64,000 nt of DNA from Acidobacteriota bacterium (GTDB taxonomy: Bacteria > Actinomycetota > Acidimicrobiia > Acidimicrobiales > RAAP-2): positions 1-64,000 of the forward strand of contig JAGXBH010000007.1 in the NCBI GenBank assembly GCA_018971185.1, read 5' to 3'. Below are positions 2,626-9,659 of the stretch, one piece after another (position 1 is the stretch's first letter; each line of letters opens with the position of its first letter). The notes under the pieces are model-generated. The model was given only the letters and a program-made list of their open reading frames with translations. It was not told where the DNA came from and searched no databases. The translations under genes were made by a program, and so were the position numbers.

Positions 2626-2743
2626 CGGACCTCTCCTGGTGCTCGCAAATAGCGTTTGACGAGTCTAGGGGACTTCCCCGCCGCGGTGCCCTCGGGTCGA
2701 ACGCAGCCGCGCGACATAGGCTGTGGGCCGTCAAAGGAGCCCC

Positions 2744-3778
2744 GTGAACGACCCTGTATTCCTCCGAGCCTGCCGCGGCGAGAGCGTCGATCGCGTCCCG
2801 GTCTGGTTCATGCGCCAGGCCGGACGTTCCCTGCCCGAGTACCGGGCACTACGCGGCACGGGATCGATCCTCGACGCCATCGCCGACCCCGCTCTCGCCT
2901 GCGAGGTCACGCTGCAGCCCGTGCGGCGTTACGGGGTGGACGCCGCCGTCCTGTTCTCCGACATCGTGGTGCCCTATCACGCGATCGACTTCGGCGTCGA
3001 CGTCGTCCCGGGACGCGGACCGGTCATCGCCCAGCCCTTTCGCGACGCCAGCGACCTGGCGCGTCTGCGCGACCTCACCGACGCCGACGTCGCCCACGTG
3101 ACCCAGACGGTGGACCTGGTGGTGGAGAGTCTCGCCGCCAACGACACGCCCCTCATCGGCTTCGCCGGCGCGCCCTTCACGGTGGCGAGCTACCTCGTGG
3201 AGGGGGCGCCCACGCGCGACTTCGCCGTCATCAAGACGCTCATGCACGCCGACCCCGCGCTGTTCGACCGGTTGCTCGACCGACTCGTCGCCATCACCGT
3301 CGCCTTCCTGCGCGCCCAGGTCGCCCACGGCGCACGAGCCTTGCAACTCTTCGACTCGTGGGCGGGCTCGCTGACGCGTGACGAGTACGCTCGTTTCGCC
3401 CTGCCGGCGACCCAGCGGGTCGTCGAGGCCGTCGCCGACCTGGACGTGCCCACCATCTTGTTCGGCGTGGGCACCGGCGAACTCCTGACGTTGATGTCGA
3501 GTGCGGGCACCTCGGTGATGGGGATCGACTGGCGTGTCGACCTCGACGAGGGGCGTCGCCGCTGCGCCAAGCCGGTCCAGGGGAACCTGGACCCGGCGCG
3601 CTGCCTGGGCGGCGTCGAGTTGGGGGTCGCCGCGGCGCGCGAGGTGCTCAAGCGCGCGGGCACCGAGAGCGGGTACATTTTCAATCTGGGGCATGGGGTC
3701 CTCCCCGCGACGGACCCGGAGGTGCTCGAGGCGGTGGTGCGGGTGGTCCACGACGAGGGAATGGCGGGCGTACGATGA
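2744..3778 (+). CDS. hemE: Uroporphyrinogen decarboxylase
   Basis: 344-residue cytosolic enzyme that decarboxylates uroporphyrinogen III to coproporphyrinogen III in heme synthesis. The signature WFMRQAGRSLPEYR (about residues 21-34) holds the substrate-binding Arg pair, and FSDIVVPYHA and GFAGAPFTVASYL are further family motifs. The GTG at 2744 is preferred over an in-frame GTG at 2723 because AAAGGAG precedes it. The stop overlaps the next start (ATGA), so it is coupled to the ferrochelatase gene. A TAGGCT about 20 nt upstream could be its -10 box. Confidence 0.96.
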   Translation: MNDPVFLRACRGESVDRVPVWFMRQAGRSLPEYRALRGTGSILDAIADPALACEVTLQPVRRYGVDAAVLFSDIVVPYHAIDFGVDVVPGRGPVIAQPFRDASDLARLRDLTDADVAHVTQTVDLVVESLAANDTPLIGFAGAPFTVASYLVEGAPTRDFAVIKTLMHADPALFDRLLDRLVAITVAFLRAQVAHGARALQLFDSWAGSLTRDEYARFALPATQRVVEAVADLDVPTILFGVGTGELLTLMSSAGTSVMGIDWRVDLDEGRRRCAKPVQGNLDPARCLGGVELGVAAAREVLKRAGTESGYIFNLGHGVLPATDPEVLEAVVRVVHDEGMAGVR

Positions 3779-4680
3779 CGATCGGCGTTCTGGTCATGGC
3801 CTACGGCACGCCCACGACGCCCGAGGACGTCGAGGCCTACTACACGCGGATCCGCCACGGCCGCCCGCCCACTCCCGAGTTGTTGGCGGAGCTCACGGGT
3901 CGCTACGCGCAGATCGGTGGCACGTCCCCCCTGGCCCAGCGCACGGCCGCTCAGGTTGCCGGACTCGCCGCGGCCCTGGACGCGCGCGCACCCGGTGCCT
4001 TCGACGTGCGCTTCGGCTCGAAGTACGAACCACCGATGATCGAGGACGTCGCGCCCAGTTTCGCGGCCGACGGCATCACCGAGGTCATCGGCCTCGTCCT
4101 CGCACCGCACTCATCGTCGATGTCGACTGACCAGTACATGGTGCGCGCGCGCGAAGCGCTCGGCCCGACGGTCACCTTCCACGAGATCGGCGCCTGGTGG
4201 GACGCCCCGGGGTTCTTGGATCTCATCGCGCGCCGGGTCATCGACGCCCTGGCGAGGATCCCCGAGGAGCGCCGCGGGACTAGCGAGGTCATCTTCTCGG
4301 CGCACTCGTTGCCCGAGAAGATCCTCGCCCAGGGTGACGACTACCCCGAGCAATTGCGCGCGAGTGCCGAAGGTGCCGCGCGACTCGCGGGGATCACCAA
4401 CTGGGACGTGGCCTGGCAATCCGCCGGACGCACGGCCGACCCCTGGATCGGCCCGGATATCTTGGAGGTCCTGCGCGCCAAGCGGGCGTCGGGCCTCACC
4501 GACGTCGTCTCGTGTCCCATCGGCTTCGTCTCGGACCACCTCGAGGTGCTCTTCGACATCGACATCCAGGCCCAAGAGGTCGCCGACGAGATTGGCCTTC
4601 ACCTGGTGCGCACCGCCTCACTCAATGACGACGCGGACTTCGTGGGGATCCTCTGCGACATCGTGATGGCCCGGGCGTGA
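3775..4680 (+). CDS. hemH: Ferrochelatase (coproporphyrin type likely)
   Basis: 301-residue ferrochelatase that inserts Fe2+ into a porphyrin. Seen: N-terminal VLVMAYGTP, the catalytic His in SAHSLPEK (about residue 177) and the acidic partner in SDHLEVLFDIDI (about 253-264). Because it overlaps hemE on one side and a HemY-type oxidase on the other, the substrate is probably coproporphyrin III, as in the coproporphyrin-dependent route of Gram-positive bacteria (CpfC). That is inference from context. Start ATG overlaps the hemE stop; the stop overlaps the next GTG. Confidence 0.95.
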   Translation: MTIGVLVMAYGTPTTPEDVEAYYTRIRHGRPPTPELLAELTGRYAQIGGTSPLAQRTAAQVAGLAAALDARAPGAFDVRFGSKYEPPMIEDVAPSFAADGITEVIGLVLAPHSSSMSTDQYMVRAREALGPTVTFHEIGAWWDAPGFLDLIARRVIDALARIPEERRGTSEVIFSAHSLPEKILAQGDDYPEQLRASAEGAARLAGITNWDVAWQSAGRTADPWIGPDILEVLRAKRASGLTDVVSCPIGFVSDHLEVLFDIDIQAQEVADEIGLHLVRTASLNDDADFVGILCDIVMARA

Positions 4681-6125
4681 CTCCTCGGACCTCGGTCGTC
4701 GTCGTGGGCGGGGGCATCGCGGGCCTCGCGGCCGCGTGGGAACTCTCGGGCGCGGCCCAGGGGCCCACGGCGTCGACGCCGCGCATCGAATTGATCGAAT
4801 CGTCGGGTCACTTCGGGGGGGCGCTGCGCCGAGCGGAGTTCGCCGGACGCACCATCGACCTCGGTCCCGACGGGTTCCTGGCCCGACGCCCCGAGGCGCT
4901 CACCCTCGCGCGCGAGCTCGGACTCGACGAGGAACTCGTGCCGATCTGCGCGTCGGGGGCGTCCATCTGGCTCAAGGGAGCGCTCCAGGAACTGCCCGGC
5001 GGCCTCGCCCTCGGCGTCCCCACCAGCGCGAAGTCCCTCAAGTCGTTGAAGGGTCTCACCTGGAGCTCGCGCTGGCCCGCGTGGCGCGACGAGCACGCGC
5101 CGCGCACGATGAAGGTCACCGAGGACGTGAGCATCGGCTCGATCCTGCGCCGCAAGCTCGGCAGCGAGCTGACCTACGAACTCATCGAACCCATGGTCGG
5201 CGGCATCCAGGCCGGTCGTGTCGACGAGCTCTCGGCCGAGGCGGTCTTCCCCGCCCTCTTCGCCGCCGCCCAACGCGGTGGCTCACTGATGAAGGCGCTG
5301 CGCGCCGACACCGGCGCGGGCGCCGGTGCGGCCGAGCGCGTCCTCGGTCCGCTGTTCATGACCCTGCGCGGTGGCGTCGCCTCACTGGTCGAGGAGCTGG
5401 TGCGCCAACTCCGCGAGCGCGGCGTCGTGCTGCGCCAGAACGCGTCGGTGAGCGCGATCCGTCCGACGCCGTCGAACCTCTATCCCTGGGAGGTCGACAC
5501 CGACGACACCGCGACCGGTGCCAGCGCGGTCATCCTGGCGACGCCCGCGCCGACCGCGGGACGGCTCACTAGCACCCTCGACGGCTCGCTCACCGACCTC
5601 ACCAGCGTGAACAGTGCCGGCGCGGCCATGGTGACCTTCGTCTTCGACGCGCGCGACACGACGCTGCCGCCCACGGGAACGGGGGTCCTCATCCCGTTGG
5701 CCACGGCGTGGAACGACGACGTCATGATGACGACCGCGGTGACCTTCCTCGACCGCAAGTGGGAACACCTGCGCCGTGAGGGCGAGGTGTTGGTGCGCGC
5801 GCACGTGGGTCGTATCGACGATCGACGTAGCGAGGCCCTGAGCGACGAGGCCCTCGTCGCGCGCGTGCGCGACGAGCTCGCGACCGTGCTCGCTCGAGTC
5901 GGCGCGCCCCTCGCCTCTCGCGTGCAGCGCTGGCCCGAGGGCCTACCCCAGTACTACGTCGGCCACGTGCAGTTGGTCGCGCGCGCGCGCCAGGCCCTGG
6001 CCCCCTACGCGATACGCCTGGCGGGCAGTGCGTACGACGGGGTCGGTATCCCCGCGAGCATCGGGTCGGGTCGACGCGCGGCGCGCGAGATCCTCACCCA
6101 GGTCGACGTCGCGACGCCGACCTGA
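4677..6125 (+). CDS. hemY: HemY-type porphyrinogen oxidase (coproporphyrinogen III oxidase CgoX)
   Basis: 482-residue FAD flavoprotein of the HemY/PPOX family, using oxygen to convert the porphyrinogen to the porphyrin. The dinucleotide-binding motif VVVVGGGIAGLAAAWELS is at the N-terminus, followed by GGALRR and IDLGPDGF typical of the family, and a C-terminal FAD-contact region near YDGVGIPASIGSGRRAA. GTG start in a GTGA overlap with hemH. With hemE and hemH this forms the late heme operon. No ChdC (HemQ) is in the window, so the last decarboxylation must be encoded elsewhere. Confidence 0.93.
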   Translation: MTPRTSVVVVGGGIAGLAAAWELSGAAQGPTASTPRIELIESSGHFGGALRRAEFAGRTIDLGPDGFLARRPEALTLARELGLDEELVPICASGASIWLKGALQELPGGLALGVPTSAKSLKSLKGLTWSSRWPAWRDEHAPRTMKVTEDVSIGSILRRKLGSELTYELIEPMVGGIQAGRVDELSAEAVFPALFAAAQRGGSLMKALRADTGAGAGAAERVLGPLFMTLRGGVASLVEELVRQLRERGVVLRQNASVSAIRPTPSNLYPWEVDTDDTATGASAVILATPAPTAGRLTSTLDGSLTDLTSVNSAGAAMVTFVFDARDTTLPPTGTGVLIPLATAWNDDVMMTTAVTFLDRKWEHLRREGEVLVRAHVGRIDDRRSEALSDEALVARVRDELATVLARVGAPLASRVQRWPEGLPQYYVGHVQLVARARQALAPYAIRLAGSAYDGVGIPASIGSGRRAAREILTQVDVATPT

Positions 6126-6674: not shown

Positions 6675-9659
6675 GTGATGGGAGCGATTGAACGACACAC
6701 GCTACCAATCCCCTATGGACACCACGTCTACGTCGTGAGTGACCTGAGCCTCTCGGCGAGCACCGAGACCCGCAGCCGTCCGGTGAAGGAGTTGACGACG
6801 CTCCTCGGCGACCTCGACGACCCGGCCGTCGTCGTGGTCGCGGGCAACCTCTTCTTCGTGCGACCCGACCAGGACCTGAGCGAGGTGATCAGCGCCACGT
6901 TCGAGCACCTCCCCGATTTCGTGGCCGCGGTGCGCTCCTTCGTGGCCCAGGAGAACCACCGGGTCTTCGTCCTGCCCGGCTCCGACGACGCCGCCCTGGC
7001 CACGGACGAGGCGGCTCGCGAGGAACTGGAGCGCCACGGTGTCCAGGTGGCGAGCGACCTCATCCTCCAGGTCGCCTCCGCCGACGGCGTGCGCGACCTC
7101 GCCATCGCCGCCGGGTCGCACCGCGTCGACGTCGAGAACGTGGACGCCGCCGACCGGGCCGACGCCGACCGCCTCGAGGACCCAGCGGCGCTGACGACGT
7201 TCGTGGCGTCGCGCGTGCTGTACCGCCGCCTGGCCCCGTGGGTCTGGTTGGTCCTGGTCGCCCTGGGCGTCGTCGACCTCTTCAATTCGGCGATTGAACT
7301 GATCGGTCACTTCACCCACCACGAGTACGCCGTCCACGCCCCCCACACCAACAGCTTCTGGGACAACCTGATCGTCAACCTCTTCATCCTGGTCCTCGCC
7401 GAGGCCCTCGTGGTGGCGGTCGCTGGCCTCCTGGTGCGCCGACGCTTCCGTCGATCGCTCCACGGTGACGCCGAGAGCGAACCGCTGGCCAACACGTTGA
7501 TCGACCAGGTCGACGCCCTCGACTACGCCCGACGGATCGTGGAGCGAGGCGGCCTGGGCGCGGTCGTCGGTGGCGCGCCCAGGCCGGCCCTCGCTTTCCT
7601 CGACCGTGGCGTCTGCGCCGTCCCGGGCCCCTCGCGCAAAGTACTGATCAAGCGCGAGGGCCGCTTCGGGCTCCCCCCGGTGTTCACCTCGGTGGCGCGC
7701 TTGGGCGTGGTCGAGATCGAGGCGGCGAGCAACGTCCAGGTCCGCCTCCTGGGCGGCCAGACGCCCGTGGCGCGCGCGCGCCTCCTCGAACGCCTGGTCG
7801 CCGGCCCCCCGACCCAGGTCGGCCCGCCCGAGGGGACGACCACCTTGGGCTCGTGGCCGCACGGCGCACCCTTTCCGGTCTCGCAGGACCGCCTCCTCGC
7901 CCAACGCCGCCAGCGTTCCGTTCGGCGTTGGGCCAGCGGGCTGATCGCCCTCGACGGTCTCATCAACGTGGCCGTCACCGCGTCGCCCCCACTGCGTTCG
8001 CGACTTCACCTGGTACGCAGCTTCCTCCCCCTGGGGGTGGCGCAATCGGCGGCGGTGGTCACCGCCATCGCCGGAATCTCGATGATCATGCTCGCGCGCG
8101 GCGTGCGGCGCGGCCAGCGCCGGGCCTGGTTCGTGGCGGTGGCGGCCCTGGCGCTGACGGTCGTCGCGCACCTGGCACGCGGCGGCTCGTTCGCCGCCTC
8201 GCTGGTGGCCGCGGCGCTCGTCACCTACCTCATCGTGGAGCGTCGACATTTCCTTGCGGCGTCGGATCGAACGACGGCGGCCGCGATTCTGCCGCGCCTG
8301 GTGATCATCGCGATCATCGCGGTGTTCGCGGGGGCCCTCGGCATCGAGGCGGCCACGCGGCGACACTACGTCCTGCCGAACTTCGGCGTCGTCCTCATCG
8401 CCTGCGCCGAGCGCCTCTTCGGCCAGTACAACATCGCGCTGCCCGACCCCTCGACCGACTTCGTCGATCCGGTCCTCGTCACGATCGGCGTCTCGCTCAT
8501 CGTGAGCGCCATCTACGTCATCACGCGTCCCGTGGTCGATCGACGTCTCTCCTCCACGGGAAGTGGCGCCGAGCGTCGCGTGGCGGAGCTGCGCGCGCGC
8601 GACATCGTGCGTCGCCACGGACGCGGCACCCTGGACTACTTCGCGCTACGCGACGACAAGCAGTTCTTCTTCTTCCGCGACTCCCTCGTCGCCTACGCCG
8701 TCTACGGCGGCGTGGCGCTGGTATCGCCCGACCCGATCGGACCCGACGCCGAGCGCACCGAGGTCTTCAACGCCTTTCGCGCCTTCTCCGAGGCCCGCGG
8801 ATGGACCATCGCCATCATGGGCGCGGGCGCGGAGTGGCTCGCCACCTACCACGCCGCGGGCATGCACTACCTCTACCTGGGCGACGAGGCCATCGTCGAC
8901 TGTCAGAACTTCACGCTCGAGGGCGGCAAGATGAAGGGGGTGCGCCAGGCCTGCACGCGCTTGAGGAAGCACGGCTATACCGTGGAGTTCCTGGACCCCG
9001 CCGACATCGACCCCGCGCAGGTCACTGGCGTTCTCGAACTCATCTCGATGTTGCGTCGCGGTGAGGGCGAGCGCGGGTTCTCAATGATGCTGGGTCGACT
9101 CTTCGACCCCAAGGACAAGGGCCTCCTCCTGACCCTCGTCTACGGACCCGACGGCCGACCCGCGGCCGCGTGCCAGTTCGTGCCGTCGCCGGCGATCAAG
9201 GGGTACTCCCTGGACTTGATGCGCCGCGACCCCGGCGAGCACCCCAACGGACTCATCGACTACGCCCTGTGCTCGACCATCGAACACCTGCGAGGCGAGG
9301 GGGCCCAGGGGCTCAGTCTCAACTTCGCCGCGTTCCGGTCGGTCCTCGACGGCGAACGCGGCGAGGGAACCTTCACCCGGGTCGAGCGCTGGACCTTGAA
9401 GCGACTCTCGGGGATCCTACCCATCGAATCGCTGTGGATGTTCAATGCGAAGTACCACCCCGTGTGGCTCCCGCGCTACATCGTCTACCCGGCCGCCGAG
9501 AACTTCGTCCCCGTGGTCGCGGCGATCCTCCGCGCGGAGTCCATCACCGAGATCCCCGTGCTCGGTCGCTTCCTCACGAACGACCCGCGCAATCGTCCGG
9601 GCACCGTCGTCCCCCCCGACGTCCTCGCCGCCGCGAAGGCCGTCGACGAGAGGAAGTAG
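6675..9659 (+). CDS. Membrane protein: inactive metallophosphoesterase-like N-terminus plus MprF/LysX-type aminoacyltransferase domain
   Basis: 994-residue fusion. Residues about 650-985 form a DUF2156 domain (GTLDYFALRDDKQFFFF, GGVALVSPDPIGP), the cytosolic catalytic domain of phosphatidylglycerol aminoacyltransferases such as MprF and LysX. Before it are about six membrane helices (roughly 422-620), the flippase-like part. The N-terminus (15-150 and 275-330) reads like a calcineurin-type phosphoesterase whose metal motifs are all altered: DLS for DLH, GNLFF for GDLFD, GSDD for GNHD, GGAP for GHTH. A two-helix hairpin (about 186-254) splits it. Likely role: lipid modification at the inner membrane. 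No lysyl-tRNA synthetase domain is fused, and the aminoacyl donor is unknown. GTG 6675 or ATG 6678 may be the start. Confidence 0.85.
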   Translation: MMGAIERHTLPIPYGHHVYVVSDLSLSASTETRSRPVKELTTLLGDLDDPAVVVVAGNLFFVRPDQDLSEVISATFEHLPDFVAAVRSFVAQENHRVFVLPGSDDAALATDEAAREELERHGVQVASDLILQVASADGVRDLAIAAGSHRVDVENVDAADRADADRLEDPAALTTFVASRVLYRRLAPWVWLVLVALGVVDLFNSAIELIGHFTHHEYAVHAPHTNSFWDNLIVNLFILVLAEALVVAVAGLLVRRRFRRSLHGDAESEPLANTLIDQVDALDYARRIVERGGLGAVVGGAPRPALAFLDRGVCAVPGPSRKVLIKREGRFGLPPVFTSVARLGVVEIEAASNVQVRLLGGQTPVARARLLERLVAGPPTQVGPPEGTTTLGSWPHGAPFPVSQDRLLAQRRQRSVRRWASGLIALDGLINVAVTASPPLRSRLHLVRSFLPLGVAQSAAVVTAIAGISMIMLARGVRRGQRRAWFVAVAALALTVVAHLARGGSFAASLVAAALVTYLIVERRHFLAASDRTTAAAILPRLVIIAIIAVFAGALGIEAATRRHYVLPNFGVVLIACAERLFGQYNIALPDPSTDFVDPVLVTIGVSLIVSAIYVITRPVVDRRLSSTGSGAERRVAELRARDIVRRHGRGTLDYFALRDDKQFFFFRDSLVAYAVYGGVALVSPDPIGPDAERTEVFNAFRAFSEARGWTIAIMGAGAEWLATYHAAGMHYLYLGDEAIVDCQNFTLEGGKMKGVRQACTRLRKHGYTVEFLDPADIDPAQVTGVLELISMLRRGEGERGFSMMLGRLFDPKDKGLLLTLVYGPDGRPAAACQFVPSPAIKGYSLDLMRRDPGEHPNGLIDYALCSTIEHLRGEGAQGLSLNFAAFRSVLDGERGEGTFTRVERWTLKRLSGILPIESLWMFNAKYHPVWLPRYIVYPAAENFVPVVAAILRAESITEIPVLGRFLTNDPRNRPGTVVPPDVLAAAKAVDERK

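Follow-up and report, generated by a model that had tools for sequence, protein, structure and literature searches.

The membrane part of the aminoacyl-lipid synthase MprF of Rhizobium tropici is divided, according to an excerpt of PMC8131360, into Subdomain 1 (Leu24-Arg325) and Subdomain 2 (Ser334-Arg530), together called the "flippase domain"; the same excerpt reports that Staphylococcus aureus MprF deprived of most of Subdomain 1 still makes the lipid and hardly translocates it. Six of the fourteen helices plus the catalytic domain are enough for synthesis, as stated in part of PMC8974105, and six predicted helices plus a GNAT domain are given in the available portion of PMC10580965 for LysX of Corynebacterium pseudotuberculosis and for its paralog. 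In the phosphoesterase LpxH of Pseudomonas aeruginosa, the lipid is held by a helical insertion (residues 118-174) that lies between the ligands His114 and His195 (excerpt of PMC5016852). Elements resembling both kinds of protein occur in one open reading frame (6675-9659, + strand) of a 64,000-nucleotide stretch of DNA (positions 1 to 64,000 of contig JAGXBH010000007.1, assembly GCA_018971185.1), here called the window, whose source is named an Acidobacteriota bacterium and is placed among the Acidimicrobiales in the GTDB lineage.

The encoded protein of 994 amino acids begins with a predicted metallophosphoesterase fold (residues ~8-396) that has a membrane hairpin inside it, continues with the counterpart of MprF "Subdomain 2", and ends with a lipid aminoacyltransferase domain. 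The start codon GTG at 6675 stands directly before an ATG at 6678, and the true start may be one codon downstream. With moderate confidence we regard the N-terminal part as a pseudo-phosphoesterase that serves as a lipid-docking or regulatory scaffold of an MprF/LysX-kind aminoacyl-lipid synthase without Subdomain 1. The parts of the protein are as follows.

6675..7181, + strand: first half of the phosphoesterase domain, residues 1-169 (predicted model, fold search and ligand columns), within which lie the altered motifs SDLS, AGN and PGSDD and a fourth ligand position without His.
7182..7460, + strand: membrane hairpin, predicted helices 170-217 and 226-262, at the site of the LpxH helical insertion (model; excerpt of PMC5016852).
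7200..7226, + strand: patch FVASRVLYR, residues 176-184, at the hairpin start (conservation in 83 representatives that keep 0-3 of eight metal or catalytic positions and share <70% identity with one another).
7461..7862, + strand: second half of the phosphoesterase domain, residues 263-396, with GGAP in place of GHTH at 299-302.
7890..8522, + strand: membrane block equivalent to MprF Subdomain 2, residues 406-616 (alignment to 7duw; limits from the excerpt of PMC8131360).
8604..9488, + strand: LPG_synthase_C (DUF2156, twin GNAT) aminoacyltransferase (PF09924; solved relatives 6lv0, 4v34 and 4v36).

The C-terminal half is the part that family models recognize. The sole Pfam match of the window protein is LPG_synthase_C (PF09924; residues 644-938, E 3.2e-66, 223.8 bits against a cut-off of 27.5), in agreement with an earlier reading made from the sequence only, which had named a C-terminal DUF2156 aminoacyltransferase; it is also the single LPG_synthase_C match in the window genome, which is 89% complete. 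Among NCBIfam models, MprF aligned with residues 406-953 over profile positions 312-837 of 841 (222.5 bits, cut-off 600), LysX (PRK02983) with residues 409-965 over positions 11-576 of 1102 (278.6 bits, cut-off 742), and a third match was marginal. In the structural model of the whole protein (predicted local distance difference test, pLDDT, 78.9; predicted template modelling score, pTM, 0.74), residues 408-956 superimpose on residues 336-860 of R. tropici MprF (7duw) with Z 29.4 and a root mean square deviation of 8.3 over 433 residues, and the comparison with the solved synthase 4v36 gave Z 29.5. Since the match extends only to Subdomain 2 and the synthase domain, with none to Subdomain 1, the protein is, as modelled, a synthase module without the flippase core, with a phosphoesterase in its place. 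The flippase-like helices of the earlier reading are thus real insofar as they correspond to Subdomain 2, which is a part of the "flippase domain", and Subdomain 1, needed for flipping, is missing; to read them as the flippase core was rejected, given that the MprF profile match starts at position 312 and that residues 1-405 are a predicted phosphoesterase. Membership in LysX was likewise rejected, because PRK02983 stays below its cut-off and there is no C-terminal lysyl-tRNA synthetase. Aminoacyltransferase activity is likely because the domain is close to the solved synthases 6lv0, 4v34 and 4v36.

Elsewhere in the window genome two separate LPG_synthase_TM (PF03706) proteins are encoded (L219 and L220), which might supply the flippase part in trans. 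The place of the phosphoesterase domain in the sequence, where Subdomain 1 would stand and joined to Subdomain 2, also raises the idea that the domain and its hairpin stand in for Subdomain 1 and help to expose or flip the product. We hold this very unlikely: a pair of helices seems insufficient to recreate the cavities of Subdomain 1, the C. pseudotuberculosis LysX and its paralog consist of six predicted helices plus GNAT (PMC10580965, in the portion cited above), and the two PF03706 proteins could act in trans.

For the N-terminal half no family match was found in the Pfam and NCBIfam scans of residues 1-400, and no phosphoesterase profile matched the window protein. When the N-domains of 12 proteins were scanned with Pfam, the metallophosphoesterase model PF00149 was touched by one (E 0.094) and the model of DNA polymerase B subunits by two (best E 2.9e-4). 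Residues 1-342, searched by sequence against the PDB, gave no match, and a relative whose metal site is intact gave only matches of E > 0.6, so that a fold search was needed to identify the domain. An AlphaFold2 model of residues 1-405, built from the window protein and 66 relatives, reached pLDDT 89.5 and pTM 0.86; its top solved structure in Foldseek was LpxH (E 1.3e-6), and in a second structural aligner ranks 1-23 were all LpxH (Z 14.3-16.2), followed by the B subunit of DNA polymerase epsilon (Z 14.2), further B subunits, a phosphodiesterase from an archaeon and VPS29 (Z 12.9), so that the hits include both live and dead representatives of the calcineurin-like fold. DNA polymerase B subunits and VPS29 are phosphoesterase folds that serve as protein scaffolds and have lost the metal site. 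A profile of the window relatives aligned with an intact relative over 425 columns, the whole domain (hhalign E 4.5e-68). Residues ~8-396 are therefore predicted to fold as a calcineurin-like metallophosphoesterase, as the sequence-only reading had proposed; a chance resemblance was ruled out by the fold search, the intact relatives and the conservation of the protein. Likeness to LpxH does not extend to membership in that family: the LpxH family model did not match the window protein at E up to 1, and of six intact relatives three matched it with at most 20 bits, against a cut-off of 134, and three were unmatched. Among seven proteins scanned with PF00149, five passed the cut-off (the fused L114, L103 and, barely, L125; the unfused L085 and L138), L137 failed it and L120 had no match. 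The window genome (G000) as a whole contains no PF00149 match, versus 14 of 14 control genomes with one.

The predicted fold is retained and its metal site is lost. Eight columns were followed, one of them the His of GNHD, which we take to be catalytic. In the window protein seven of the eight are changed (H25>S, D58>N, N103>S, H104>D, H146>A, H300>G and H302>P) and D23 alone is kept, so that the pattern of a dinuclear site, D,H / D / N / H / H,H, is absent. Seven of the columns are metal ligands listed for P. aeruginosa LpxH in the excerpt of PMC5016852. The earlier remark that every visible metal motif is changed thus holds, and the loss is consistent across the genus. Some residual activity of the N-domain, with other chemistry or a single metal, could be imagined from the retention of Asp at position 23 in 56 and at position 105 in 65 of the 83 representatives, and from the partial sites of some lineages; we consider it quite unlikely, since the replacements at the other metal positions are varied and the His ligands are almost all gone in the window's clade.

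Relatives show how far this state extends. Of 61 genomes searched, 44 gave whole-protein matches, and these include all 37 of the window's genus (its own genome counted; some are contig fragments); against this, a later genome of the genus, G354, had no N-domain match. Searches with the N-domain matched 54 genomes in a sample of 395 from the class and 45 in a sample of 396 from the phylum, two samples that overlap; with the C-terminal part as query, 140 of the 397 genomes searched in the order gave a match. In a scan of named genomes 177 stretches matched, 123 were confirmed and the best 80 were kept; the scan patterns were drawn mainly from dead copies and many rows come from the window's genus, so the fractions that follow are not prevalences. 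In 79 of these best 80 loci a single frame contains the N-domain together with all or part of the synthase domain. By their titles, 75 of the 80 come from actinobacterial taxa, four from Acidobacteria or Acidobacteriota and one from a record named only "bacterium"; isolate names, palsa and bog among them, suggest peat. The four records of metagenome-assembled genomes titled Acidobacteria or Acidobacteriota (L161, L174, L189 and L204) are perhaps misnamed Acidimicrobiia.

A first count left out overlapping or refetched loci (L001, L039, L044, L052, L058 and L061-L084) and then the truncated L040, L043 and L095; its 183 N-domains came to 158 once contained copies were removed, 142 of them fused and 16 unfused or split. 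Among the fused, six had all eight positions (L103, L114, L124, L125, L135 and L136), five had 3-5 and 131 had 0-2; 15 of the unfused or split domains had all eight, 13 of these coming from a single family of the phylum, and the remaining one, a split dead copy, had none. Loci of the order added 23 N-domains, with L162 and L221 representing one split gene. In the recount, 163 fused domains minus four near-copies (98% identity) and seven gapped rows (L036, L106, L109, L130, L177, L182 and L239) left 152, of which seven have 8/8 (L247 being new), two 7/8 (L249 and L253), 12 have 3-5 and 131 have 0-2. Homologs with intact ligands and the same fusion therefore exist, an outcome that the sequence-only reading had tied to a copy that is simply mutated; the loss is not private to the window copy, as the trees below indicate. 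One metagenome-assembled genome, G422, has both a dead and an intact fused copy (L102 and L103), the latter on a long branch and perhaps on a stray contig. At L096 (2252-3529) an unfused intact phosphoesterase lies divergently beside a glycosyltransferase of the monogalactosyldiacylglycerol (MGDG) synthase type, a possible lipid link; no such hint was found among the neighbours scanned at the unfused intact L085, L088, L091, L129 and L138.

Only the C-terminal part was used for the trees, which come from a quick search without bootstrap and have roots chosen by the analyst. In the first, rooted on L041, which has no N-domain and sits on a very long branch (6.07), intact copies lay near the base and 53 rows formed a clade (support 98) of dead or partial copies. 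A larger tree of 81 rows left out L041, L130, L016, L055, L053, L201, L214, L193 and L184, as well as the new loci L221, L222, L225, L227, L229, L230, L239, L240, L241, L245, L250 and L255; copies with seven of eight positions were scored as intact, among them L238 (7/8), whose two parts lie in separate frames. This tree contains a 64-row clade (Shimodaira-Hasegawa-like approximate likelihood ratio test 99) with 47 dead, ten lost, seven partial and no intact copies, and outside of it intact, partial, dead and lost copies are intermixed; all four states of the N-domain coexist in one bacterial order. The label intact requires five changes on the tree, at least three of them forced by well supported branches. 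We read such changes as losses, a direction on which the counts themselves are silent, because the unfused relatives are intact and it is implausible that seven or eight residues should each have been regained exactly; a once intact fusion would thus have lost its site several times, and in other lineages the N-domain is deleted. In 12 pairs of genus members the ratio of nonsynonymous to synonymous substitution rates (dN/dS) was 0.16-0.42 for residues 1-185, 0.07-0.47 for the hairpin (one pair saturated), 0.05-0.22 for residues 261-405 and 0.04-0.20 for the synthase domain. By these ratios the N-domain is under purifying selection in the genus; taken with the faster change of dead N-domains given below, they describe a selection that is relaxed but continuing. 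A single mutated copy or a pseudogene was ruled out, the loss spanning the genus and the larger clade and dN/dS being low.

The hairpin belongs to the domain. Hydrophobic stretches at ~192-210 and ~236-254 lie inside its two predicted helices, and such a pair is present in six of six intact fused and 15 of 15 intact unfused proteins and in 131 of the 135 domains with 0-3 positions. The two helices that the sequence-only reading saw interrupting the domain are thus there, and they are a normal part of this phosphoesterase family, not damage. Since the hairpin (170-262) sits between the ligand-equivalent positions 146 and 300, as the LpxH insertion does between His114 and His195, it corresponds in position to the lid of LpxH, serving here as a membrane anchor. 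Its first helix opens with the residues S179 to R184 (FVASRVLYRR), and of these S179, R180 and Y183 are each kept in 98% and R184 in 96% of the 83 representatives; others among the best kept are G57, A315 and L358 (98%), P334 and P395 (99%), and G295 and G318 (100%). In the six intact fused proteins S179, R180 and R184 are invariant and Y183 is kept in 83%. The loop between the helices (residues 212-225, window 7308-7349) is rich in His, HFTHHEYAVHAPHT, and less so in distant relatives; in ten genus members H212 is invariant and H215 and H224 are kept in at least 90%. The loop could serve in metal binding or pH sensing.

Several results weigh against a scaffold role. The domain is dispensable: the label deleted needs six changes on the tree, of which well supported branches force at least four, and among 20 short-frame loci chosen from the matches listed, 15 show no N-domain either in the frame itself or in the upstream sequence fetched, which covered only 230 bases in L233 and 790 in L037; in two of the remaining five (L221 and L238) the N-domain lies in a separate neighbouring frame, and three are cut by contig ends, two of which still show part of it. 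Dead N-domains change faster: their median identity is 0.28 (1579 pairs), compared with 0.46 for intact ones (six pairs), the C-terminal part standing at 45-50%. The patch is also weaker in the 15 intact unfused proteins, where Y183 is invariant and R180 is kept in 93%, S179 in 73% and R184 not at all. The faster change, the 15 loci without the domain and the shortened N-domain of L036 are what one would expect from an evolutionary relic that is wearing away, with what is left retained only because it aids folding or insertion into the membrane, or because it is difficult to delete. This is the main rival to the scaffold reading, and we judge it possible though rather unlikely, considering that in none of the 12 genus pairs does dN/dS reach 0.5 in either half, that a nearly invariant patch persists apart from the metal positions, and that the domain has persisted across a clade of many families.

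The scaffold reading would run as follows. An ancestor would have had a complete metal site in the same chain as the synthase; in the window lineage the site would have been lost and the fold, the hairpin and the Ser-Arg-x-x-Tyr-Arg patch at its start retained. The C-terminal part (406-956) would take some amino acid from its aminoacyl-tRNA and attach it, at the cytosolic face, to a membrane lipid, perhaps phosphatidylglycerol or diacylglycerol. The dead domain would lie on the same face, a placement suggested by the Arg-rich sequence at both ends of the hairpin, and would hold the synthase at the membrane, probably binding, but not cleaving, an anionic lipid or its head group at the base of the hairpin. 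It would thus act as a scaffold or regulator at the place of MprF Subdomain 1. More doubtful is an extension to an ancestral two-enzyme lipid machine, in which the phosphoesterase cut a phospholipid or nucleotide-lipid and the synthase aminoacylated the same pool, and from which a dead domain with a kept lipid pocket would have become a built-in sensor of that lipid, a receptor derived from an enzyme in the same chain, that sets the rate of aminoacylation.

Neighbouring genes of the window protein do not point to a clear partner. Upstream, a row of genes at 2723-6122 encodes uroporphyrinogen decarboxylase, ferrochelatase and an amine oxidase that may be protoporphyrinogen oxidase; an HAD protein is also encoded on that side, and downstream lies a gene for a ParA-type ATPase.

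A synthase whose flippase core is replaced by a lipid-enzyme fold bears on how aminoacylation is controlled without that core of MprF, and a graded series from intact through partial and dead to deleted in one fused protein makes the purpose of a pseudoenzyme domain testable with natural variants. The parts are each known; the combination and the graded loss of the site are what is new. No description of a fusion between a phosphoesterase and MprF/DUF2156 was found in the searches made of openly licensed papers, and no single family covers this domain order in the Pfam and NCBIfam scans, which agrees with the sequence-only reading that the architecture is not that of a described family.

Compared with known systems, the window protein shares with MprF (7duw) the Subdomain 2 membrane block (TM9-14) and the twin-GNAT synthase domain, and differs in that Subdomain 1 (Leu24-Arg325) is missing and a predicted phosphoesterase fold stands there instead. 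With LysX and the aminoacyl-diacylglycerol synthases of Corynebacterium and Mycobacterium it shares a six-helix block and a GNAT domain (portion of PMC10580965), but it ends at residue 994 without a lysyl-tRNA synthetase domain and carries the additional N-terminal phosphoesterase. The LpiA/AcvB pair, as described in part of PMC13197417, resembles it in pairing a lysyl-lipid synthase with an enzyme acting on lipid; there, in contrast, the hydrolase AcvB is a protein of its own, located in the periplasm and encoded in one operon with LpiA. LpxH is the nearest solved fold of the N-domain and has, like it, a helical insertion between the fourth ligand and the GHxH motif, although that insertion is a four-helix lid in LpxH and a membrane hairpin here, where the metal site is lost. 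The dead scaffolds, DNA polymerase B subunits and VPS29, share the phosphoesterase fold with the window N-domain by structural similarity (Z 14.2 for the polymerase epsilon subunit and 12.9 for VPS29); unlike the window protein, they are soluble, serve other processes, and have neither a membrane hairpin nor an aminoacyltransferase.

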